IMG/VR virus record: IMGVR_UViG_3300031974_001781
Location: 1-47,080 of that record
From: a virus
Reading direction: 5' to 3' (one strand)
Length of the DNA stretch: 47,080 nt
The position numbers and the translations under genes are program-made. The notes beneath the pieces were generated by a model. The model did no database searches, was not told where the DNA came from, and worked only from the letters and a program-made list of their open reading frames with translations. Positions 21,148-47,080 of this stretch are shown here, one piece after another. Position 1 is the first letter of the stretch. Each line of letters opens with the position of its first letter.

Positions 21148-21765
21148 ATGCAACTTAAAAACAATTTTTGGTTTTTCGAAAAGGCTTTGTCAGAAAGTTT
21201 TTGTAACGAAATTATAAAGAGTGGTTTTGATGCTAATCCTAAATTAGCTAAAACTCATAAATATCATAATAAAAAAATAACATCAAAAAATAAAAAAGAT
21301 TTAAAAAAACTTAGAGATTCAAATGTAGCTTTTTTAGATCATCCTTGGATTTATAAAGATATAGATCAAATATTTAAAGCAGCAAATCATAACGCAAGAT
21401 GGAATTTTCAATATGATTTTTATGAAGCAACTCAATTTACTGTTTACGAAAAAAATCAACATTATGGTTGGCATGTAGATGCAAATGTTGATCCATATTC
21501 TAATAATGTTTATGAAAACTATAAAGGTAAAATTAGAAAATTATCTGCAACAATAGCTCTTAATGATGCAAAAGATTATAAAGGAGGTGAATTTCAAATT
21601 GATTTAAGCACTCCTACAGAAAAAAGATTATTTAAAGTACCCTCTTTAAAAAAGAAAGGGTCTATAGTAATATTTCCTTCTCATCTACAACATAGAGTTA
21701 CTCCAGTTACAAAAGGAATTAGATATTCTTTAGTTATTTGGGCTTTAGGATTACCATGGCGATAG
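21148..21765 (+). CDS. 2OG-Fe(II) oxygenase (PKHD-type hydroxylase-like)
   Basis: 205 aa with the facial triad and co-substrate Arg in place: YGWHVDA gives His109 and Asp111, LQHRV gives His182, GIRYSLVIW gives Arg192. Spacing matches PiuC/PKHD-type dioxygenases, which hydroxylate a carbon using 2-oxoglutarate and O2. The substrate is unknown; protein side chains (fibre or host protein) or small molecules are possible. First gene of the island, behind a candidate own promoter. It overlaps the next gene by 10 nt. Confidence 0.82.
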   Translation: MQLKNNFWFFEKALSESFCNEIIKSGFDANPKLAKTHKYHNKKITSKNKKDLKKLRDSNVAFLDHPWIYKDIDQIFKAANHNARWNFQYDFYEATQFTVYEKNQHYGWHVDANVDPYSNNVYENYKGKIRKLSATIALNDAKDYKGGEFQIDLSTPTEKRLFKVPSLKKKGSIVIFPSHLQHRVTPVTKGIRYSLVIWALGLPWR

Positions 21766-22352: not shown

Positions 22353-22822
22353 AAGTAAAATTAATACAACCAAAACTTTTTACATCTCCTTTTTCTTTTT
22401 TCTTTAGATTTTTTATAGGAATTAAAAAGTTAAAAATTAAATCAAATAAAATAGATAAAAACTTTGAATTTGAATTAAGACAAGCATATACTGAATATTG
22501 TACCTCAGTAAAAATTGTCCCTGAAACTTGTTATTACGAAATAACTGATAAGCCAACTCCATCTGATATTCATCAATGGTCTTATTTAAAAGGTGTAATT
22601 AATTTAGATAATATAGGTCAAACGATATTTAGATTACCATTTCAATTCAATGGCAAATATGGAGAGTTAAAAATCAAAAATAAAAAAAATCAAATTTTAA
22701 TAGGAGAAGAAAATTTAGATATTACAAGTCGTGGTAAAAATATTTTCTTTAATCTTCATTATCATAAAAATCCTAAATCTAAAAAACATAAATTATTAAT
22801 AGATTTGTCATCAGGCAATTAA
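22349..22822 (+). CDS. Unknown protein (157 aa) in the oxygenase island
   Basis: Basic, aromatic and probably beta-rich (SYLKGVINLDNIGQTIFRLP). It lacks an HxD...H triad, Cys cluster and membrane span. Sandwiched by 1- to 4-nt overlaps between two 2OG-oxygenase genes, it must be cotranslated with them and may be an accessory or substrate-binding protein. The N-terminus (FTSPFSFFFRFFIGIKKL) is hydrophobic and could be membrane-associated. Confidence 0.6.
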   Translation: MKVKLIQPKLFTSPFSFFFRFFIGIKKLKIKSNKIDKNFEFELRQAYTEYCTSVKIVPETCYYEITDKPTPSDIHQWSYLKGVINLDNIGQTIFRLPFQFNGKYGELKIKNKKNQILIGEENLDITSRGKNIFFNLHYHKNPKSKKHKLLIDLSSGN

Positions 22823-23355
22823 TGAATTTATTTGAAATACCTTATTTGAAACTAAGCTGTTCTAATTGGAAACAAAAGAAAAAGAAATTAGATAAATTAA
22901 CAAAGAATCAAAAACTATCTAGGCAAAGTCATAACATATTTTCAACTACTAAAAATGTTAATTTTAAAGGACGAGAAAATTATGTTGATCAATTTACTGA
23001 TATTTTTAAAGAGGAGTTTGAAAAATTTGGCAATCAATTTAAATTTAAAAAATTACATATAAAAGATATATGGACAGTTGTTTATGATCAACACGATTAT
23101 CAAACACCTCATCATCATGGTATGATGGGTTGGTCAGGTATTTTATATTACGATTATATACAAGAACAACCATCAACAATATTTATTCAGCCTTGGCATT
23201 GTTTAAAAGAAGGAGTTACTAAGTTGAAAAGTTTAGATACGAAAGAAGGAGATATGATTTTCTTTCCAAGTTTTATTTTGCATTTTTGTCCAAGTAATCA
23301 TTTGAAAAAGAAAAGAAAAATTATTTCTTGGGACTTAACCAGTGAATCTATTTAA
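22822..23355 (+). CDS. 2OG-Fe(II) oxygenase-like protein (PF13759-type)
   Basis: 177 aa. YQTPHHHGMMGWSGILYYDY matches the N-x-H-x-H...SG-YY pattern of the 2OG-FeII_Oxy_5 group, with His97/His99 as metal candidates. EGDMIFFPSFILHFCPSN gives the distal His154, and Arg165 in KKKRKIISWDL is a candidate co-substrate ligand. The first metal site is H-x-H rather than H-x-D, as in that group. It ends 8 nt inside the convergent - strand gene. Confidence 0.72.
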   Translation: MNLFEIPYLKLSCSNWKQKKKKLDKLTKNQKLSRQSHNIFSTTKNVNFKGRENYVDQFTDIFKEEFEKFGNQFKFKKLHIKDIWTVVYDQHDYQTPHHHGMMGWSGILYYDYIQEQPSTIFIQPWHCLKEGVTKLKSLDTKEGDMIFFPSFILHFCPSNHLKKKRKIISWDLTSESI

Positions 23356-23866
23356 AAGTATAAACTAAGACAACTCTCCTATTCTTTTTAGGAGATGTTC
23401 CAATATGCCAGCATTTAGGAAAACTAACAGCTCTAAATTGTTTTGGTTTTATTTTTTTAAATACTGTTTTTTTATCATCTTTAAATAAAAGAGTTTCACC
23501 ATCTTTGTTTTTAGTTAAATAAATTAATAAGTGATTGTAATTAGTATCGTGATCAGTATGCATAAATGATTTATTTTCTTGAGGAAAATTAGTATTTAAA
23601 CAACATCTTAATATCTTTTCATATCTAATTTTATGTTTTTTACAAAATTTATCTAATAAGGATACACAAAAACTAGATATGTGAGATGTGTGTCCACCCC
23701 CTAATTCTATTCTTTGAATAATGCAATGTGAATAAAACCAATAATTATCTCCTTTGTTTGATTCTTCATTATAGTACCAAGGAAAATTATGATCTAATAT
23801 TGTTTTATTAATAAAATTAATTTCTTTTTTACTTAAAAAATTATCGTCTTGAATAAATTTTTTCAT
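23348..23866 (-). CDS. Prolyl-4-hydroxylase-like 2OG-Fe(II) oxygenase
   Basis: 172 aa. SFMHTDHDTNYNHLLIYL provides His103 and Asp105 (HTD), FPKCWHIGTSP the distal His154 and NRRVVLVYTF the Arg164. The jelly roll between carries GETLLFKDDKK. Layout fits prolyl- and lysyl-hydroxylase-like enzymes in giant and marine viruses. Its start shares a base with the upstream - strand stop (TAATG), so it is the third gene of a halogenase operon. Confidence 0.82.
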   Translation of the reverse strand: MKKFIQDDNFLSKKEINFINKTILDHNFPWYYNEESNKGDNYWFYSHCIIQRIELGGGHTSHISSFCVSLLDKFCKKHKIRYEKILRCCLNTNFPQENKSFMHTDHDTNYNHLLIYLTKNKDGETLLFKDDKKTVFKKIKPKQFRAVSFPKCWHIGTSPKKNRRVVLVYTFK

Positions 23867-24543
23867 TAAAGATATCTTTTAGTATTAGGTATAGGAAGAC
23901 GTTTAGCTCCATGAATATTACTAAAAAATGTAATTAATGTTATTCTGTCTTCTTTCACTTTAGGATCATAAAAATTTTCAACGCCATGATATTGAAAACT
24001 ATCAAATATAAACAAACGATTGTATACAGATTCAACTTTTACTGTTCTTTCAAAATCTTGGTTTTGTTCATCTCTTGCTTTAAAATATCTTTGATCGTAT
24101 TTTTTATTTGATCCGTAATATTCTTTTTTAATAACATTATTTTTAATATGATATTCTCTTTGAAAAGGAAATTGTCCTTCTTTTCTTTTATATAAAGAAG
24201 TTCCACAATTTTTATGTTTAGAAAGATATACTATCGCTGTAAATTCAAAATCATTATCATTATGTATCCAGCCATGACCTTCTTTTGGATTTGGTTTTAT
24301 AAATTGAAATGTTTGATAAGCATCAAAACTTAATCTAAAATCTTCTGGTTGATTATTAAACACTGCAGATGCAATTTTATTTGTACTCCAACTAAAAAAA
24401 TCTTTCTTAACTAAGTGTAAAGGTTTTGTTCTTTCTCCAGGATAAGCATTCATATTTTCTGCTTTTTCTAAAGAAAGACCTATATCTCTAATTTCATCAG
24501 GATCATTAAAAAAATTATCTATAATTATACTTGGATATATCAT
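23866..24543 (-). CDS. DUF6445-like 2OG-Fe(II) oxygenase-fold protein
   Basis: 225 aa. The N-terminus (IYPSIIIDNFFNDPDEIRDI, then YPGERTKPLH) fits DUF6445, and the body keeps a dioxygenase layout: GHGWIHNDNDF gives His94-Asp96, SFQYHGVEN gives His186, EDRITLITFFS gives Arg200. DUF6445 genes accompany flavin halogenases in bacteria and phages, as here. It probably hydroxylates the same or a related substrate. It overlaps the halogenase end by 29 nt. Confidence 0.78.
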   Translation of the reverse strand: MIYPSIIIDNFFNDPDEIRDIGLSLEKAENMNAYPGERTKPLHLVKKDFFSWSTNKIASAVFNNQPEDFRLSFDAYQTFQFIKPNPKEGHGWIHNDNDFEFTAIVYLSKHKNCGTSLYKRKEGQFPFQREYHIKNNVIKKEYYGSNKKYDQRYFKARDEQNQDFERTVKVESVYNRLFIFDSFQYHGVENFYDPKVKEDRITLITFFSNIHGAKRLPIPNTKRYL

Positions 24544-25663
24544 TCTTTTTAGTTACTCCTTCTTTCCATAAGTTTATATTCCATGTTTCCCATTGAGCAT
24601 ATTCAATATCATTATTAGTTTTACTTCTTAAATAAGGTTGATCTTTATCTTTTAAATTTTTTAAAATTAAATCTAAATCTTCACCTCTATTATTTTTTGC
24701 TAGTTTTGTAGCATGTTTCCAAAAAGGTGTTTTATAAATTGATCCTGTTTCATAATGCCATAAAATAAAATTTTGAACTTTATTTATATAATCTTTTATT
24801 CTTTTAGTTGATTGTTCTAAGGTACATGTTTTATCTATAATAGCATCCCAAATATATTGACACCAAACTTGATATGTATTTACAGCTGTTGCTTCTAAAG
24901 GCTCTAAAAAGAAAAATCTATTTCCATTTAATATAACTCTATTATCTATAATTGGATTTTTAGCCATATATTGTTTAAAAGAAAAATCAGCATTAATTTT
25001 ATCAATGCCAAAAAGTTCTTTAAAATTATTTTTCGCTTTTTCTATGCTTGTAATTTTATTATTAAAATTATAACCTAAAGATACTCGTTCTTGTAAAGGT
25101 ATGTAAAAACACCAACCATCTTTCGTAGCTATTGTTCTTGTCCAAGATACGTCATTTAATTTTACAGGTAGAGAACCTAATAAAACATGGTTTAAAGGAT
25201 TAATTAATTTATCATAACCTTTAAATGATTTTGGAGTTCCTCTACAATCAATAATATAGTCAGCATCAATTTCATCATAAGTTACAATATTTTCATCTTT
25301 TTCTATAAAATTTACTTTTAAATTATCTAATACAAATCGTTGAAATTGTGATGGATTAAAATGTATAGAATACGAACCAAATGGAAAATGATGCATAATT
25401 AATTTATTTTTATTGCCCCAATTCTCATACATAATTCCAGTCTTTTGTGTATATGAAAATTTAGATGTTATATCAGCTCCAATTGCTTGCCAAAGTAATC
25501 TAGGTAAAGGTAAAGTTGTGGCTTGTCCAACTGGTACAGGAGCTATTTTACTATCATGTATAGTTTCTATTTCGATAGGTTTATTAAGGAATTTACCATA
25601 ATGATGAAAATGTAATGCTGAAACACAACCAGCGTTTCCTTTTCCAATAATACTTATTTTCAT
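24515..25663 (-). CDS. Flavin-dependent (tryptophan-type) halogenase
   Basis: 382 aa. GKGNAG (7-12) is the FAD-binding GxGxxG; PVGQATTLP (44-52) is the halogenase GxATxP segment; Lys74 in QKTGIMYENWG aligns with the catalytic Lys (FKxGIxFxNW) that forms the halogenating species; GWCFYIPL (183-190) is the WxWxIP motif with Phe for the second Trp; Glu257 in FLEPLEATAV aligns with the catalytic Glu of EPLESTG. It is shorter than typical tryptophan halogenases (about 500 aa). Reduced FAD must come from a host reductase; none is in the window. Substrate unknown: free or protein-bound aromatic. Viral halogenases such as cyanophage VirX1 are known. Confidence 0.85.
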   Translation of the reverse strand: MKISIIGKGNAGCVSALHFHHYGKFLNKPIEIETIHDSKIAPVPVGQATTLPLPRLLWQAIGADITSKFSYTQKTGIMYENWGNKNKLIMHHFPFGSYSIHFNPSQFQRFVLDNLKVNFIEKDENIVTYDEIDADYIIDCRGTPKSFKGYDKLINPLNHVLLGSLPVKLNDVSWTRTIATKDGWCFYIPLQERVSLGYNFNNKITSIEKAKNNFKELFGIDKINADFSFKQYMAKNPIIDNRVILNGNRFFFLEPLEATAVNTYQVWCQYIWDAIIDKTCTLEQSTKRIKDYINKVQNFILWHYETGSIYKTPFWKHATKLAKNNRGEDLDLILKNLKDKDQPYLRSKTNNDIEYAQWETWNINLWKEGVTKKNDISKYNYR

Positions 25664-37908: not shown

Positions 37909-39414
37909 ATGTTGTTCGAAGATTTTTACAAAGTCTTTCCAGGCTTAACTCGTGTTTATGGTAAATTTACTGTAACAGGTAAAAAAGGTCTTAAACTAGA
38001 AGGCTATGGAAAGACTATAAGAGAACCTTATGTAAAAGAACTATGGAAAGAACACCTAGACGGTAAGATAGGTCTAGGTGTTGTTCCAATAAACGAAGAC
38101 AATAAGTGTAAATGGGGTTGTCTTGACGTTGATGATTACGCAGTAGATTTAGAAAAAATTTCAAAAACATTTGTAAATAAGAATTTAATTATATGTAGAT
38201 CAAAAAGTGGTGGTGCACACATTTTTATCTTTACGAAAAAATTTGTACCAGCATCTAAAATGATTACAAAATTAAAAGAAATAGCTGACTCTTTTGGTTT
38301 TGTTAAATATGATTTAAGACCACAACAAACTAAATTAATAGACGATAACGACTGCGGTAGTTGGCTTAATATGCCATACTTTGGATCTGATGAAACAGAT
38401 AGATATGCATTATACAATGGCGAAGTTTTAATTGCAGATCATTTTATAAAATGGATAGAAAAGTTTTCAGTAAATAGTTTAGATGAAATAGATTTAAGTT
38501 TTATTAAAAAAGTAAATGACGTAGAAGAAAAATTACCAGGTGGACCGCCTTGTTTACAACATTTACTTTCTGCCGGCGGTATATCAGAAGGTGGTAGAAA
38601 CAATGGTTTATTTAATTTAGGTGTATATCTTAGAAAGTCAGATGAAGAACATTGGCAAGAAAGATTAGAAGAATTTAACGAAAAGTTTATAGAACCGTCA
38701 CTTAAACCTAGAGAATTTACAACAGTTCTAAATTCTTTAGATAAGAAAACTTATAATTATAAATGTAATGATTCTCCAATTAATTCAGTATGTCAAAGAC
38801 CTAAATGTTTAACTTGTAAATATGGTATCAATGACGATGGTCAAATGCCTATTTTAAATAGTGTTACTAAAATGTTAACTAAACCACCTACTTATTATTT
38901 AACTTTAAATAGTAAAAGAATTGGTCCGTTAAGAGCAAAACAAATTTATAATTTTTTAGATTTTAAAGAAATAGTTTTTGAAAATTTAGATATGTTATTA
39001 CCAAAAGTAAATGACAAAATATGGACAGAGACAGTAAATGATTTAATGCAAAAATTAGAAGCTGTAGAAGTTCCAGATGATAGTAGTAATGAAGGTAGAT
39101 TATACGAATTATTAGAAAGATTTTGTACTGGTTCAACAAGTTCTACAGAATACGAAGATTTATTACGAGGTAAAGCTATTATTCAAGAAGAAAAAACATT
39201 ATTTAGAATAAATGACTTTATGGAATTTTTAGATAGACATCGTTTTAAAGAGTTTAAATTACATGAAATTACTGCTTATCTTAAAAATTTAGGTGCTACA
39301 CACTCAGGAAAAAAGATAAAAGGTAAATTTACTAACGCTTGGTCTATTAAAAACTTCGAAACTCAAAACGAAGAATTTAAACAACCAGAAATAACAAAGG
39401 AAGCATATGAATAA
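37909..39414 (+). CDS. Archaeo-eukaryotic-type primase (AEP-like, 501 aa)
   Basis: GCLDVDDYAVDL gives Asp73-x-Asp75 metal ligands, SKSGGAHIFIF the His104 nucleotide-binding strand, and NMPYFGSD a further AEP motif (TOTE-primase-like order). A C-terminal Cys-rich patch (SVCQRPKCLTCKYG) looks like a zinc site. It would prime phage DNA in place of a T7 gp4-type primase-helicase. It overlaps the next ORF by 8 nt. Reads like phage primase/PrimPol enzymes, although polymerase activity cannot be told from sequence. Confidence 0.78.
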   Translation: MLFEDFYKVFPGLTRVYGKFTVTGKKGLKLEGYGKTIREPYVKELWKEHLDGKIGLGVVPINEDNKCKWGCLDVDDYAVDLEKISKTFVNKNLIICRSKSGGAHIFIFTKKFVPASKMITKLKEIADSFGFVKYDLRPQQTKLIDDNDCGSWLNMPYFGSDETDRYALYNGEVLIADHFIKWIEKFSVNSLDEIDLSFIKKVNDVEEKLPGGPPCLQHLLSAGGISEGGRNNGLFNLGVYLRKSDEEHWQERLEEFNEKFIEPSLKPREFTTVLNSLDKKTYNYKCNDSPINSVCQRPKCLTCKYGINDDGQMPILNSVTKMLTKPPTYYLTLNSKRIGPLRAKQIYNFLDFKEIVFENLDMLLPKVNDKIWTETVNDLMQKLEAVEVPDDSSNEGRLYELLERFCTGSTSSTEYEDLLRGKAIIQEEKTLFRINDFMEFLDRHRFKEFKLHEITAYLKNLGATHSGKKIKGKFTNAWSIKNFETQNEEFKQPEITKEAYE

Positions 39415-41894: not shown

Positions 41895-42953
41895 ATGAAA
41901 GCATTAGGAACATACATTTTTGCTGGTGGTTTTACCATTGGTGTTAGTAAACATTTTGATGTAGAAGCACATTTCGAGGGTAAGCCTGCTGCATACAAAA
42001 AAACTTTTCAAGCTAATTTTCCTAAAATACCTATTTATGAAGGTGTTGAAAATTGGCCAAGAGAAAAATATAAAAATAAAATAGACTTTGTATATTGTAA
42101 TCCACCATGTGCACCGTGGTCTAATTTAGGTGGAGCACAAAAAGGTGCAGGAGCATGGAGAAATGATCCTAGAATTAAATGTTGGCGAGATAGTTTTAAT
42201 TTACTTAAAGAATTAAATCCTAAAGCTATTGCTATTGAATCAGTACCTAGAGTTTATAGTAAAAATGGTGGTCGACCGATGATCATGGAGTTATCAGAAG
42301 AAGCAAATAAATTAGGTTATCAAGTAACACACTTATTAATTGATGGCGGTTTTACTGGATTAAATCATTCAAGAAAAAGATTTTTCTTTATTGCCACTAA
42401 ATATAATTTAAATGCAGGCGGATTAAATTTTCAACCATTACCTACTACAGGTGAAGTATTAAGTTCTTTTAAAAAAGAATATGGAAAAGACATAGGTCAT
42501 CTTATGAAACTTGGTAAAAACGAAATACCTTATTTAAAACATTGTAAACAAGGTGAGAGTTTAAGAGTTACATGGGAAAGATATAATCCACCAGAAACTT
42601 GGGTAAGAGGAGGTATGAGAGGCGGAGTAAAAGGAAGACCTCAATTTATGAAATGGAGATTAAAGTCAAATGCTCATATACCAGTTATCGCAGGAGGATT
42701 TTACATACATCCTACAGAAGATAGATTATTTGGTCATAAAGAATTAGCATATATGGCAGGATATCCAGTAGATTATAAATGGGAAGGACCTTCTTCTAGT
42801 ATTGGTTCACAAATCGCAAGAGGAGTAATGCCGCCTGTAGCTGAATATGTAGCAAGAATAATTAAAAATAGTATAACTGATAAAAAAGAAAAAGAAGAAA
42901 AATTACAAATAGTAGATTATCGAAAGGCACCAGAACAAGATACTTTATTATGA
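41895..42953 (+). CDS. C5-cytosine DNA methyltransferase-like protein (352 aa)
   Basis: YIFAGGFTIGV (7-17) is a motif-I-like SAM site; YCNPPCAPWSNLG (68-79) is motif IV with the catalytic Cys72; AIESVPRV (114-120) stands for motif VI (Glu115 kept, ESV instead of ENV); NHSRKRFFFIA (157-167) is motif VIII (Arg160/Arg162); GSQIARGVMPPVAEYV is motif X. It would methylate cytosine C5 in DNA, or be a C5-acting relative working on modified cytosine, given the neighbouring hydroxymethylase gene. No restriction partner seen. It overlaps the MazG gene by 4 nt. Confidence 0.8.
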   Translation: MKALGTYIFAGGFTIGVSKHFDVEAHFEGKPAAYKKTFQANFPKIPIYEGVENWPREKYKNKIDFVYCNPPCAPWSNLGGAQKGAGAWRNDPRIKCWRDSFNLLKELNPKAIAIESVPRVYSKNGGRPMIMELSEEANKLGYQVTHLLIDGGFTGLNHSRKRFFFIATKYNLNAGGLNFQPLPTTGEVLSSFKKEYGKDIGHLMKLGKNEIPYLKHCKQGESLRVTWERYNPPETWVRGGMRGGVKGRPQFMKWRLKSNAHIPVIAGGFYIHPTEDRLFGHKELAYMAGYPVDYKWEGPSSSIGSQIARGVMPPVAEYVARIIKNSITDKKEKEEKLQIVDYRKAPEQDTLL

Positions 42954-43390
42954 CAGATATAAATATGTTTGATGACAATGATAAATTATTAAAAGATATT
43001 GATTCTTTTCATAAAAAATTTGGCTTTGCAAAGAACGAAAAAGTTGGTATACCTGATGATAATGAATTAGTAAATTTTAGAACTTCTTTTTTAGCAGAAG
43101 AATTTGCAGAATATACAAATGCTATTACTAAAAAAGACGCTGCTGCAGCACTAGACGCTTTAGTTGATATTGTTTACATAGCACTAGGTACAGCTTGGCT
43201 TTTCAATCTACCTTTTGAAAAAGCATGGGAAGAAGTTCAAAAAGCAAATATGAGTAAAATTAGAGCTAAAAGTAAATCAAAAAAACGTGGAACTAAATTT
43301 GATGTAATAAAACCAAAAGATTGGAAAGCACCGAATATAGAGAAAATTGTGGAAGAAGAAAGAGAATGGAACGAAAGCAAAAAGTATTAA
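42950..43390 (+). CDS. MazG-like nucleoside triphosphate pyrophosphohydrolase (146 aa)
   Basis: FLAEEFAEY (48-55) supplies the E-E-x-x-E metal site (Glu50, 51, 54) and ALDALVDIVYIALGTAW the D-x3-D pair (Asp69, Asp73), typical of the all-alpha NTP pyrophosphatase family that also includes T4 dCTPase. Next to a putative dCMP hydroxymethylase it may hydrolyse dCTP to dCMP, feeding hydroxymethylation and keeping plain dC out of phage DNA. Substrate is inferred. Confidence 0.78.
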   Translation: MTDINMFDDNDKLLKDIDSFHKKFGFAKNEKVGIPDDNELVNFRTSFLAEEFAEYTNAITKKDAAAALDALVDIVYIALGTAWLFNLPFEKAWEEVQKANMSKIRAKSKSKKRGTKFDVIKPKDWKAPNIEKIVEEEREWNESKKY

Positions 43391-44406
43391 TAACAGGATT
43401 TAATGCATTAGCAATAGGTACAGCTAAAAGTACATTAAATATTGCAACATCAGCTAGAATATTACCAAGAGTTTTAAAAGAAATAGGATATGATGTAGTA
43501 CAAAAACCTATAACTCCTGGTGAAGATGTAAGTCAATATGATAAAGTAATCGTATATGTATTTGGTCCAAACAGTTTATCTGCAAGATTTTGGTATGGTG
43601 CAGCTTATACACTTATTAAAAGACCTGATGCAATAGTTTCTATTGATGATTGGCAAGTAAAACAATCTGTATCAGGATTTGGTACATTCGCAAGAGGTCA
43701 TTGGAGAATATGGAAAAAATTAAGTAAAGCAGGAAATCCTGTAGGAAAAGTTAATTGGGAAGAAGCACAACCATATAAAAAAGAAATAGAGGATTTAGTT
43801 GATCACTATGCTTTTGATACATGGCCAAAATTATTAATTCCAGCATATGATGGCGGAGATTATTCAACTTTAGGTGTAAAGAGTAAAGAAATAATAAATT
43901 GGGATCCTACACCTTATACTGATACTTATTTGAATAATCCAAATGTAGACTTATTTTCGACACAATTACCAGTTAGAGTTAAAGGTAAGCATTGGGTTAT
44001 GGCTAGTTTATTAAATAAAATGAATTGGTTGAAAGATAATAATTTTCAATGGGAAGTTAAAAATTTTGGTAATGTAAAATTAAAACAAGAAAGATTGAAA
44101 GAACATGAATTATTTGAAGAATATAGAAAAGCATGGGCAATACTTAGTCCTCCTCACTATCATACTGAAAAAGGAAGTGCGTGGTGGAGAGTAAGATATA
44201 AAATGGCTAGTGATGCTAAAAATATTGTAGTAGCTCATCCAGAGGAGATGAAAAAATTATATGGTTTTAGTTTAAATATTTCAGATATAGAAAGTAAAGA
44301 TAAAGAAGAATTAAAAGAATTATTTAAGAAACAAGATGATGCTTTTAAAAATAAAATATGGACTAAAGAAAAAACGAAAGAATATTTTAAATGCTTGCTA
44401 GGATAA
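43366..44406 (+). CDS. T4 beta-glucosyltransferase-like GT-B protein (346 aa)
   Basis: ATG at 43366 (the frame before it only offers TTG). Compared from memory with T4 BGT (351 aa): QYDKVIVYVFGPN resembles BGT's NDYDRLIVV; VSIDDWQVKQS (Asp94/Asp95) sits where BGT has its catalytic Asp100; and WWRVRYKMASDAKNIVVA resembles BGT's RVWETMASDAVML, so Arg275 falls on the UDP-binding Arg269. BGT's Glu272 is replaced by Tyr278, so the donor or mode may differ. Between a MazG-like enzyme and dNMP kinase/hydroxymethylase, it is a good candidate for glycosylating modified cytosine in phage DNA. Confidence 0.65.
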   Translation: MERKQKVLITGFNALAIGTAKSTLNIATSARILPRVLKEIGYDVVQKPITPGEDVSQYDKVIVYVFGPNSLSARFWYGAAYTLIKRPDAIVSIDDWQVKQSVSGFGTFARGHWRIWKKLSKAGNPVGKVNWEEAQPYKKEIEDLVDHYAFDTWPKLLIPAYDGGDYSTLGVKSKEIINWDPTPYTDTYLNNPNVDLFSTQLPVRVKGKHWVMASLLNKMNWLKDNNFQWEVKNFGNVKLKQERLKEHELFEEYRKAWAILSPPHYHTEKGSAWWRVRYKMASDAKNIVVAHPEEMKKLYGFSLNISDIESKDKEELKELFKKQDDAFKNKIWTKEKTKEYFKCLLG

Positions 44407-44984
44407 TAATATTTGAAGGTCCTGATGGCGTAGGTAAAACTACATTAATAAATCATCTTAAAAAAGAATACGGTAAAGACGCCTATTATATGCATTTAAG
44501 AGTTCATAAAGATATGGAGTTATGGCATACAGCTAGTGCTAGATTAGCAATAAGAAAAAAACAAGAAGGTAAATTAGTTTTAATAGATAGACATTGGCCT
44601 AGTGAACAATTTTATTCTCATATTTATAGAGAAGGACCTAGTTATAATCCTGAAAAAATTTATAAAGTATTAAAATTGGAAGGCGCATTATATGTATGGT
44701 GTTTACCAAAAGATATAGAAAAAGTAAAAGAAAATCATAAAATTAACAGAGAAAAAAGAAAAGAAGAATATTATGATATTGATAAGGTAATTGAGTTATA
44801 TAATGATTATTGGAATTATTCAACATCTACTTCAATTGATTTTCATAAGAATAATTTAATGGATATGTTAGCACCATTAAAAAGAAGACCTGATTTTATT
44901 AGATACGATATGTTTGAAGAAGGTCGTGATTTAAATGCAGTAACGGATAGGATAGTGGATAAATGCTTCGCAATGAATTTATAA
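44391..44984 (+). CDS. Deoxynucleoside monophosphate/thymidylate kinase-like protein (197 aa)
   Basis: IIIFEGPDGVGKTTLINHL carries the P-loop (10-17); LVLIDRHWPSEQFYS (63-75) holds the DR(H/Y) motif of thymidylate kinases; a lid with KINREKRKEEYYD follows. In T4 the equivalent step phosphorylates hydroxymethyl-dCMP as well as dTMP. It may feed modified dCMP towards the triphosphate here. It overlaps both neighbours by 16-22 nt, which supports stoichiometric coexpression. Confidence 0.82.
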   Translation: MLARIIIFEGPDGVGKTTLINHLKKEYGKDAYYMHLRVHKDMELWHTASARLAIRKKQEGKLVLIDRHWPSEQFYSHIYREGPSYNPEKIYKVLKLEGALYVWCLPKDIEKVKENHKINREKRKEEYYDIDKVIELYNDYWNYSTSTSIDFHKNNLMDMLAPLKRRPDFIRYDMFEEGRDLNAVTDRIVDKCFAMNL

Positions 44985-45799
44985 ATTACTTAAATATAGA
45001 TTACAAGAAAAAGATACATGAAATAGTACAAACACCTGAGTTCGTTTGTTCTCCTCGTGGTATGAAAATTTTAGAAATACTTAATGATTCTTTTCATGTA
45101 GATATGGATTGTCCTGTAATTCTAAATGTAAAAAGAAAATTAAATTATTCTTTTATGTTAGGTGAAGCAGCATGGATGTTAGACGGAAGAAATGATGTAA
45201 AAACAATAGCAAAATATTTAGGTGGTATAAAAAGATTTAGTGACGATGGTGTTACTTTTTTCGGTGCTTATGGACCGAAGATCATTACTCAAACAAGTTA
45301 CATAATTAAAAAGTTAAAAGAAGATCAAGACAGTAGACAAGCAGTATTGACTATATGGAGAGAAAATCCGATAGCAAGTAGAGATGTACCGTGTACATTA
45401 TCAATGCAATTTTTTTTAAGAAAAGCAAGCGATGAATTATTTTTACATTGCATAACTAATATGAGAAGTAACGATATTTGGTTAGGAACACCTTATGATT
45501 CTTTTAATTTTTCAGCGATTAGTTTTTATATTGCTCTATTTTTAAATAGAGAAGGTATTAAATGTAAATTAGGAAAACTTACAATTAATGCAGGTAGTAG
45601 ACATCTTTACGAAGAAAATTTAAAAAGAGCAGAGGAAGTTGTAACTTGTTCAGATTTTTTTCCTTTAGATTTTAGTTTTAATGATCTTATTGAAAAATAT
45701 CAAGATAGACCTCATAAATTTATTTTCAACTTGTATTCAGGCGCAGAAGAACATAAAAATATACCACAAACTAAATTAAATTACATTAAGAATGGTTAG
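44963..45799 (+). CDS. dCMP hydroxymethylase-like member of the thymidylate synthase family
   Basis: 278 aa with the thymidylate-synthase fold: LGEAAWMLDG (Glu68, Trp71), DSRQAVLTIW, catalytic Cys144 in DVPCTLSMQF, MRSNDIWLGTPYD, and the ribose-binding HLYEEN near the C-terminus. Two features favour dCMP over dUMP: Cys is followed by Thr as in T4 gp42, not His; and the Asn that reads dUMP in TS is Asp179 (TPYD versus LPFN), the same change as Asp179 in T4 gp42. It should add a one-carbon unit to dCMP via methylenetetrahydrofolate, giving 5-hydroxymethyl-dCMP. A TS with altered specificity is the alternative. Confidence 0.78.
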   Translation: MLRNEFINYLNIDYKKKIHEIVQTPEFVCSPRGMKILEILNDSFHVDMDCPVILNVKRKLNYSFMLGEAAWMLDGRNDVKTIAKYLGGIKRFSDDGVTFFGAYGPKIITQTSYIIKKLKEDQDSRQAVLTIWRENPIASRDVPCTLSMQFFLRKASDELFLHCITNMRSNDIWLGTPYDSFNFSAISFYIALFLNREGIKCKLGKLTINAGSRHLYEENLKRAEEVVTCSDFFPLDFSFNDLIEKYQDRPHKFIFNLYSGAEEHKNIPQTKLNYIKNG

Positions 45800-46271
45800 T
45801 CGAATTCCACGTCAATGGTATTTTTTAAAGATGGCTAATCTAGTTTCAGAGAGAGGAACTTGTATTAGAAGAAAGGTAGGTTGTGTTTTAACAAATAAAC
45901 TTGGTCACGTCTTAGCCACAGGATATAATGGAGTGCCTTCTAATTCTAAACACTGTATAGATAAACCTTGTAGTGGTGCTATGTATAAATCAGGAGAAGG
46001 TTTAGATGAATGTCAAGCAATTCACGCTGAACAAAATGCTTTAATACAATGTAAAAATAATTTTGAGATTGATTCAATTTATTGTACATTAAGTCCTTGT
46101 ATTACTTGTGTAAAATTATTTTTAAATACATCTGCTAAACATATTTACTTTATAAAGAAGTATGTAAAAGAAGAACCCGCAAAAGAATTATGGTTATCTA
46201 ATGGTGGAGAATCATGGACTTATATTAGAAAGGAATTAATATTACCTGAATGTTCAAAATCTCTGAATTAG
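45792..46271 (+). CDS. dCMP deaminase-like protein (159 aa)
   Basis: Zinc/catalytic motifs are complete: HAEQNAL (His78, Glu80) and SPCITCVK (Cys103, Cys106); CIRRKVGCVLTNKLGHVLAT begins the deaminase fold. It makes dUMP from dCMP, supporting thymidylate supply. Together with the hydroxymethylase it competes for dCMP, as in T4. Starts inside the hydroxymethylase end and overlaps the polymerase start by 22 nt. Confidence 0.9.
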   Translation: MVSRIPRQWYFLKMANLVSERGTCIRRKVGCVLTNKLGHVLATGYNGVPSNSKHCIDKPCSGAMYKSGEGLDECQAIHAEQNALIQCKNNFEIDSIYCTLSPCITCVKLFLNTSAKHIYFIKKYVKEEPAKELWLSNGGESWTYIRKELILPECSKSLN

Positions 46272-47080
46272 AAAAAGCTAAAATAATAGCAATTGATACT
46301 GAAACATACGATCCTCGATTAAAAACTCACGGACCTGGTGGATTTAGAAAAGATGGAAAATTAGTCGGTATTTCTTTAGCAACAGATACTGGTTACAATG
46401 AATATCTTCCAGTAGGTCATCAAGGCGGTGGTAATTTAAATAATTCTAAAGTTGTTGATTTTTTAGATACTATACTTAAATTAAATAAACCTATGGTATT
46501 TGCTAATGCTATTTATGACATGGAATGGCTTTATTCACACGATAATAGATTAGACTTTGATAGATATAATAAAATTTACGATATACAAGGAATTGAGCAT
46601 TTACTTGATGAAAACAAATTAAAATATTCTTTGAATAGTTTAGCAAAATATTATTTAAAAAAATCAAAATATGAAGTTGAATTAGAGCAAGCGGTACAAG
46701 TAGAATTTGGTAAAAGAGCTAAAGTTAAAGATAATTTATGGAGACTACACGCAAATCATGTTGCTGAATATGCTAAAGAAGACGCTTTACTTACACTTCA
46801 AATTTTTCAAAAACAACAAGAAAGAATTGATAAAGAAGACGTTAGAGCAGTTGTAGAATTTGAATCAAAACTAATAACTCTATTATTTGAAATTAGAAAA
46901 AGAGGAGTAAGAATAAATCTATCAAAGGCAGAAAAATTATATTATGAGTTAGAAAAAAAGCAACAAGACACTCAACAAAGACTAAATAAACTTGGAGGAG
47001 GAGAAGTAAATGTATGGGCAAACGCTTCTCTCAAACAAGCATATGATAAAAATAAAATTAGTTATAATTACACAGCAAAA
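46250..47080 (+). CDS. Family-A DNA polymerase, N-terminal part (truncated by window)
   Basis: The ATG at 46250 opens a frame that stays open to the end of the window (277 codons). It has the 3'-5' proofreading domain: AIDTETYD (Exo I), ANAIYDMEWLY (Exo II, N...YD) and YAKEDALLTLQIF (Exo III, Y...D). KYYLKKSKYEVELEQAVQVE lies between Exo II and III. The polymerase palm should lie beyond 47080. Replicates the phage genome; operon partner of the modification genes just upstream. Confidence 0.85.
   Translation, partial: MFKISELEKAKIIAIDTETYDPRLKTHGPGGFRKDGKLVGISLATDTGYNEYLPVGHQGGGNLNNSKVVDFLDTILKLNKPMVFANAIYDMEWLYSHDNRLDFDRYNKIYDIQGIEHLLDENKLKYSLNSLAKYYLKKSKYEVELEQAVQVEFGKRAKVKDNLWRLHANHVAEYAKEDALLTLQIFQKQQERIDKEDVRAVVEFESKLITLLFEIRKRGVRINLSKAEKLYYELEKKQQDTQQRLNKLGGGEVNVWANASLKQAYDKNKISYNYTAK

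Follow-up and report, generated by a model that had tools for sequence, protein, structure and literature searches.

Does the virus behind IMG/VR record IMGVR_UViG_3300031974_001781 coat the cytosines of its DNA with a sugar, and with which one? The question is raised by six open reading frames (ORFs) that lie head to tail on the + strand at positions 41895-46271 of this virus record, whose 47,080 bases, analysed over their whole length, we call the window. They encode a C5-cytosine methyltransferase-like protein (C5-MTase), a MazG-like pyrophosphohydrolase, a candidate DNA glycosyltransferase (GT) with the predicted fold of T4 beta-glucosyltransferase (BGT), a kinase-like protein for deoxynucleoside monophosphates (dNMP), a thymidylate synthase (TS) family enzyme resembling hydroxymethylases of deoxycytidine monophosphate (dCMP), and a dCMP deaminase. 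A T4-like route to glycosylated hydroxymethylcytosine, with enzyme activities that are predicted, is well supported. It seems probable to us that the operon makes glycosylated 5-hydroxymethylcytosine (5hmC) in the phage DNA, with a uronic acid or pentose donor and with the C5-MTase as partner of the GT.

In this pathway the MazG-like enzyme would convert dCTP to dCMP, which the TS-family enzyme would turn into 5-hydroxymethyl-dCMP, the substrate class being read from diagnostic residues; the dNMP kinase and a host kinase would then bring it to the triphosphate for incorporation by the phage polymerase, and the BGT-fold GT would attach a sugar to the hydroxyl in DNA. Left-over dCMP would be directed towards dTMP by the deaminase. 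The donor is most likely UDP-glucuronate or a pentose that derives from it; a nucleotide-sugar dehydrogenase of the phage, with its gene shortly beyond the end of the window, would make it, using NAD+ from a phage NAD synthetase. The C5-MTase, at the weakest step, might work with the GT by methylating cytosines that escaped replacement, or by guiding the GT to its bases. The logic of such a pathway is already known, glycosylated 5hmC being familiar from T4 and arabinosyl-cytosine from the RB69 group; what is new here is the GT family, the donor modules and the C5-MTase partner, and our literature search returned no report of this GT family, of uronic-acid 5hmC or of an MTase-GT fusion among the matches listed.

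The six genes are all intact, and a polA-type DNA polymerase gene, cut by the window end, lies directly downstream (N-terminal part, 46250-47080, + strand; PF01612 5.1e-12, PHROG 17 2.3e-37). Every junction from the C5-MTase through the polymerase (6/6) is an overlap, of 4-25 bases once the GT start is set at 43366; this ATG is the most likely start, rather than TTG 43321, because relatives start there. The operon is more than a chance arrangement, since its gene order is common to dozens of viral contigs and since the ratio of nonsynonymous to synonymous substitution rates (dN/dS) is 0.05-0.19 for the eight genes that were set against those of the nearest relative, as under purifying selection. 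In relatives it continues beyond the position where the window ends. The initial annotation, which had placed six overlapping genes directly ahead of DNA polymerase and had given each a family, is confirmed on both counts, by Pfam and PHROG and, for the GT, by predicted fold. Its description of the genome as podovirus-like also fits, because the closest named terminases to that of the window (44-45% identity) are those of HTVC023P-type pelagiphages, and because a DNA-ejection-protein family is matched in the window. These pelagiphages are podoviruses (PMC9599517; this and the other articles given by PMC number are cited from excerpts).

Two of the smaller enzymes are clearly assigned: the MazG-like nucleotide pyrophosphohydrolase (146 residues, 42950-43390, + strand), a candidate dCTPase, reaches 47.8 bits with PF01503 for a cut-off of 21.3 (2e-12; PHROG 671 3.1e-29), and the dCMP deaminase (159 residues, 45792-46271, + strand) 66.2 bits with PF00383 for a cut-off of 25 (2.7e-18; PHROG 174 5.6e-34). 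The P-loop dNMP kinase (197 residues, 44391-44984, + strand) resembles thymidylate kinases, and is called kinase-like because it scores 25.8 bits with the thymidylate-kinase model PF02223, slightly short of the required 27, and passes with the general PF13521 alone (2.7e-7), in agreement with PHROG 761 (6.9e-17).

The TS-family enzyme carries cytosine-type residues

The TS-family enzyme (278 residues, 44963-45799, + strand; PF00303 5e-19) has Cys144, Thr145, Asp141, Asp171 and Asp179 as its diagnostic residues. Its closest solved relative is MilA, a CMP 5-hydroxymethylase (7.9e-21), true thymidylate synthases following at 4.8e-10. The catalytic Cys, Thr147 and Asp177 (E. coli numbering) are present in 82/82 TS-family homologues, the window's included, in a set that is not free of duplicates and includes loci retrieved with the window enzyme itself; at the position three residues before the Cys (T4 Asp145, window Asp141), 81 of the 82 have Asp and one has Asn. 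An Asp at this place is part of the hydroxymethylation signature (PMC6400193). The Asp at T4 position 179, which is E. coli 177, and the lack of a His at 147 are cytosine-type features of the window enzyme. RB69 td, a true TS, reads His147/Asn177, and the SPO1, M6 and PhiW-14 enzymes read Asn147/Asn177, the last two being, we assume, dUMP hydroxymethylases of the SPO1 class; T4 gp42 and RB69 ORF048c both read Thr147/Asp177. The SPO1 enzyme itself is a dUMP hydroxymethylase (PMC6400193). Asp at position 177, with position 147, has been linked to phage contigs selected for modified cytosine, and so has the company of PF00303, PF01503 and PF00383 (PMC8670742). The TS tree, in which deep forks are weak and the branches of RB69 and of the true TS are long, served for residue classes only. 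A cytosine-type rather than uracil-type hydroxymethylase-like enzyme, of predicted activity, is thus supported, and the proximity of MilA, Thr147/Asp177 and the Asp three before the Cys bear out the name initially given to it.

The glycosyltransferase adopts a predicted BGT fold

The GT (346 residues, 43366-44406, + strand) is the weakest of the family assignments, yet its predicted fold matches T4 BGT first with both Foldseek and VIA-align. At the level of sequence, neither Pfam nor NCBIfam gives a match at E 0.1, its profile finds nothing among PDB sequences at E 1, and its single PHROG match, 14998 (2.9e-26), is labelled "unknown function". The AlphaFold2 model, built from a 36-sequence alignment, has a mean predicted local distance difference test score (pLDDT) of 90.6. 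Foldseek against the PDB returns T4 BGT (1qkj) at E 2.6e-5 with probability 1.00, the sole match below 0.001, followed by a second BGT entry and the glycosyltransferase of phage HY126 (1.2e-3 each) and by T4 alpha-glucosyltransferase (5.5e-3). VIA-align puts four BGT entries on top (Z 18.1 to 16.9, the best over 290 residues), the next family being the selenosugar synthase SenB (Z 15.9); among viral models, the best match is an uncharacterised protein of 67% identity. At seven polar positions, D95, D96, R278 and E310 among them, the residue is conserved in 35 or all of the 36 aligned rows, and the invariant D95/D96 are candidates only for the counterpart of the BGT catalytic Asp100. Going by this model, the protein is a candidate BGT-fold DNA glycosyltransferase, which would transfer a sugar to the hydroxymethylated base.

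Of 50,697 phage records, 42 contain this family, which is mostly annotated as hypothetical among the 40 matches listed; judging from the organism counts, none of the 42 is an HTVC023P-type pelagiphage. A scan of species genomes with one pattern, in which 66 stretches matched, yielded no cellular relative, and we do not take it as proof of absence. Basic residues specific to the clade (R32, K233, K246, H248) might fit a carboxylate donor; they would count as evidence only alongside a ligand model.

Neighbour genes and the donor sugar

Loci L002-L003 and L010-L099 come from two scans of viral contigs with the GT, the second giving the best 80 of 101 relatives, and from one with the TS enzyme. 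Domains were tallied for 80 GT loci; after removal of three copies of the window or of L003, 35 of them have at least 7 kb on both sides. Near-identical contigs are included, and some members seeded the profiles. Among these 35 well-covered loci, TS is found in 32, C5-MTase and deaminase in 30 each, kinase in 29 and MazG in 24, dehydrogenase in 16, NAD synthetase in 13, a short-chain dehydrogenase/reductase (SDR) in 8 and galactopyranose mutase in 5. T4-like Aeromonas phages account for the three loci with no TS in range; Aes508, which we checked, has a gp42-type enzyme elsewhere in its genome, again with Thr147/Asp177.

The donor-making genes differ by lineage. In L003, the nearest relative (GT 93% identical), the polymerase gene is followed by those for a nucleotide-sugar dehydrogenase and an NAD synthetase (TIGR00552, over cut-off); the dehydrogenases of L003 and L002 score 215 and 201 bits with TIGR03026, for a cut-off of 189.8. 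Every window-clade locus that reaches at least 5.9 kb past the GT carries the dehydrogenase (25/25) and 22 of these carry the NAD synthetase, while in the eight clade loci lacking the dehydrogenase the DNA stops no more than 3.6 kb from the GT. In the sister clade, whose GT is about 50% identical, the operon includes a UDP-glucuronate decarboxylase; that of L037 matches known decarboxylases at 2.8e-91, the next family reaching 1.3e-33. Over whole records, the dehydrogenase is found in 9/9 window-clade relatives and 0/4 of the sister clade, and the decarboxylase in 4/4 of the sister clade and 0/9 of the window clade, bar one weak 29% match in L014. L065 has both (decarboxylase match 8.2e-93). 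Remote members of the GT family, in actinobacteriophages and Aeromonas phages, adjoin a UDP-galactopyranose mutase (12 of the 80 loci), a name taken from the records' annotation: TIGR00031 was the best match of the two proteins tested, at 134.3 and 276.5 bits, under its cut-off of 303.75. An SDR gene in L014, L016 and L045 was also considered; the L014 copy is ambiguous between epimerase and decarboxylase, and it was not counted as a decarboxylase. The GT tree, where L070 raises a long-branch warning, shows clustering of the donor labels (13 changes against a shuffled mean of 18.2), the label "none seen" partly reflecting short contigs.

The simplest reading of these neighbour genes is one DNA GT family with interchangeable donors. 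In the window clade the donor is most likely UDP-glucuronate, or a derivative such as a pentose, rather than glucose. Nucleotide-sugar dehydrogenases of this type use two NAD+ per sugar, which would explain the NAD synthetase. Of the "T4-like glucosylated hydroxymethylcytosine" proposed at the outset, the T4-like logic is therefore retained, with its TS, MazG, kinase and BGT-fold components, and "glucosylated" gives way to a uronic-acid or pentose sugar.

We also put forward, tentatively and with less confidence than the general pathway, a more specific version: 5hmC would bear negatively charged glucuronate, the GT family would swap donors by exchange of neighbour genes (glucuronate, xylose and galactofuranose in different lineages), and the divergent C5-MTase would be its partner. 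If true, a uronic-acid coat on cytosine would be a new modification. The proposed pathway as a whole would give a function to the unannotated viral family PHROG 14998, would place T4-style sugar coating of DNA in small marine-type phages, and would predict unseen DNA sugars, with donors that the genes next to the GT would reveal. Cytosine coated with a charged sugar or a pentose would matter for restriction, CRISPR, sequencing and modification-dependent defence.

The C5-methyltransferase regularly accompanies the GT

The C5-MTase (352 residues, 41895-42953, + strand) scores 97.8 bits with PF00145, for a cut-off of 22 (1.1e-27), and its model (pLDDT 87.9) has an ordinary C5-MTase fold. It belongs to a divergent subfamily, with PPC, ESV and RKR motifs: the catalytic Cys, the Glu and the RxR are kept, Cys and RxR being present in 19/19 aligned representatives; Ala, Ser or Thr follows the Cys in motif IV (PC[A/S/T] instead of PCQ), and motif VI is E[S/C]V, not ENV, in all 19, the window's included (13 ESV, 6 ECV). 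Aligned PDB enzymes (3g7u, HaeIII, HhaI, MET1) have PCQ and ENV, apart from an engineered Cys mutant of HaeIII. Cellular controls, read by regular expression from 30 loci of 60 genomes, with no reading from 13 of the loci, are PPCQ in all 13 distinct readable genes, with 12 ENV and one EEV; a single distant Blastococcus match, from a scan of species genomes with the methyltransferase, was used only to reach control genomes. These departures in motifs IV and VI are why we file the protein as methyltransferase-like.

It is a regular partner of the GT family and not a stray addition, being present in 30 of the 35 well-covered GT loci. In L052 (8420-11032), MTase and BGT-fold GT form one frame of 870 residues, the order of the operon being otherwise the same, and L051 (2-2428) has the same join, cut at the contig end. 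As the two are fused in these contigs, they very likely act together, and the fusion gives a direct clue to the way in which the placing of sugars may be guided. The protein had been presented as an additional one; its presence, family and fold stand, and "additional" is revised.

Two other ideas about this protein were abandoned. The motif expression had suggested loss of the Cys in several GT-linked MTases, until the alignment located it in 19/19 (L093 has PRC in place of PPC). As for carboxymethyl transfer, the DNA cytosine carboxymethyltransferase 8yf3 does come up in the fold and profile comparisons, where ordinary methyltransferases match at least as closely. We further observed that in L093-L097 C5-MTase-like enzymes, with PRC in place of PPC, and Asp177 TS enzymes lie side by side where the GT family was not detected, and that L040 (7920-8588) and its relatives, of the decarboxylase-carrying sister clade, have an extra methyltransferase-like gene, dependent on S-adenosylmethionine, between UvrD and C5-MTase, whose best NCBIfam matches are below cut-off.

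Alternative readings

Several observations weigh against glycosylated 5hmC with a uronic-acid or pentose donor. The functions of the operon proteins are predictions, and profile comparison of the GT with BGT is not significant (hhalign probability 4-12%). In the window, which stops inside the polymerase, a profile search for four kinds of donor gene, the dehydrogenase among them, found none. The L003 dehydrogenase matches UDP-glucose (1.2e-28) and GDP-mannose (9.1e-28) enzymes equally and reaches no equivalog cut-off, and no decarboxylase is clearly present in the window clade, so that a pentose would need a host enzyme; all these records may be fragments. Finally, Gly101 of the window's TS-family enzyme stands in the place of Ser94 of the T4 hydroxymethylase, where Ser or Thr is expected. 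Ser94 is part of the hydroxymethylation signature (PMC6400193). The Tyr corresponding to T4 Tyr96 is kept; of 24 viral rows, 22 have Gly at the Ser94 position, as does M6. We therefore do not file the enzyme as T4 gp42-type, only as working like one.

The most serious competitor, although an unlikely one, is the same pathway with unmodified glucose at its end, drawn as in T4 from the UDP-glucose of the host; the downstream dehydrogenase and NAD synthetase would then serve surface sugars, redox balance or NAD-based counter-defence. The closest folds to the GT are indeed glucosyltransferases, and both the lack of a donor gene of the searched kinds in the window and that of the dehydrogenase in the four sister-clade records agree with it. 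Against it, donor-modifying genes recur beside the GT in separate lineages, and differ from one to the other: dehydrogenase, decarboxylase, both, or galactopyranose mutase.

It is less probable still that the TS-family enzyme makes 5-hydroxy-dCMP, to which the sugar would be joined straight at C5 through that oxygen. The RB69 group reportedly uses a 5-hydroxy-dCMP synthase homologous to the hydroxymethylase (PMC13390438). We took ORF048c as this enzyme because it is the only TS-family gene found there besides td; it shares Thr147/Asp177 with the window enzyme, which moreover lacks the T4 Ser94. However, ORF048c has Glu three residues before the Cys and Asn at the Asp171 position, whereas the window enzyme keeps Asp at both, and the nearest solved relative of the latter is the hydroxymethylase MilA.

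We give little credit to a third possibility, that cytosine is only methylated, the TS-family enzyme making 5-methyl-dCMP and the GT acting on a surface sugar and not on DNA. Asp177 alone can turn a true TS into a dCMP methylase (PMC8670742), glycosyltransferases and sugar dehydrogenases also serve surface polymers, and the window has a separate GT2-type gene at 1576-2430; yet the GT gene overlaps those of the kinase and the MazG-like protein, keeps company with Asp177 TS enzymes, in which the hydroxymethylase Asp is present, and encodes a protein whose nearest fold is a DNA glycosyltransferase. Least credible of all is a post-replicative origin of hydroxymethylcytosine, with methylation by the C5-MTase, oxidation by one of the 2OG-Fe(II) (2-oxoglutarate- and iron-dependent) oxygenases encoded at 21148-21765 and 22822-23355 and then glycosylation, for the oxygenase genes are remote from the operon and set among others, their matches are to general 2OG families, the operon has a hydroxymethylase-like enzyme already, and Tet_JBP was matched in 0/16 records, in a search where no control genome matched either.

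Comparison with known systems

Glycosylated 5hmC with a uronic-acid or pentose donor would share with T4 (gp42, gp56, gp1, alpha- and beta-GT) dCTP removal, dCMP hydroxymethylation, a dNMP kinase and a post-replicative BGT-fold transferase, and Asp179, Cys148, Asp145 and Asp171 of the T4 hydroxymethylase are kept in the window enzyme. The differences from T4 are a GT not detectably related by sequence, the Gly for Ser94, the further C5-MTase, the donor-making genes of the relatives, the polA-type polymerase and the compact operon. The Manatee Spring podovirus MW202510 (ct3Et533) has a similar annotated series, methyltransferase, MazG-like (ntP-ppase), thymidylate kinase, pyrimidine hydroxymethylase, dCMP deaminase and DNA polymerase, but, known from annotation alone, it has no GT between the MazG-like and kinase genes. 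Aeromonas T4-like phages (Aes508) and the Actinomycetia phage DSL-LC01 combine the same GT family with an Asp177 TS-family enzyme; there the GT adjoins the annotated UDP-galactopyranose mutase, in separate gene layouts.

Donor synthesis by the phage has precedents. Shewanella phage Thanatos, which carries a pentose on cytosine, likewise has a TS-family enzyme, a dCTP pyrophosphatase, a dCMP deaminase and phage-made UDP-pentose; its UDP-xylose comes from a pyrophosphorylase, whereas relatives of the window carry a nucleotide-sugar dehydrogenase or a decarboxylase (PMC12838424). In Bacillus phage SP-15, which has glucuronolactone on modified uracil, a phage UDP-glucose dehydrogenase is assigned to the uronic acid of the DNA base, but the base replaces thymine, the link is a phosphodiester and the enzymes are different (PMC5977210). 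HTVC023P-type pelagiphages, with the nearest named terminase, have, close to the polA polymerase, TS-family genes, genes for thymine hypermodification and a putative glucosyltransferase; unlike the window, they follow a thymine route with a pyrophosphorylase partner (PMC9599517).

Other features of the window

PADLOC matched the C5-MTase to methyltransferases of known defence and restriction sets and gave a dCTPase-labelled match for the deaminase, and returned nothing for the GT, TS-family or MazG-like proteins. Promoter and terminator sites were no more numerous in our scan than in shuffled sequences, and no tRNA gene was found.

The GT2-like gene at 1576-2430, a second glycosyltransferase, lies just ahead of the terminase (PF00535 7.4e-6, PHROG 14945). 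A tryptophan halogenase family protein is encoded among structural genes at 24515-25663 (- strand; PF04820 1e-31); phage DSL-LC01 likewise has a halogenase, adjoining a glycosyltransferase. Of the three oxygenase-like genes on the - strand (21148-21765, 22822-23355 and 23348-23866), two are over the cut-off for 2OG-Fe(II) oxygenases and the third is a weak match. Such genes are a trait of HTVC023P-type pelagiphages too (PMC9599517). Lastly, a primase of archaeo-eukaryotic type is encoded at 37909-39414 (AEP-TOTE PF22548 2e-10, with PriCT_1), in a genome whose DNA polymerase is polA-type.

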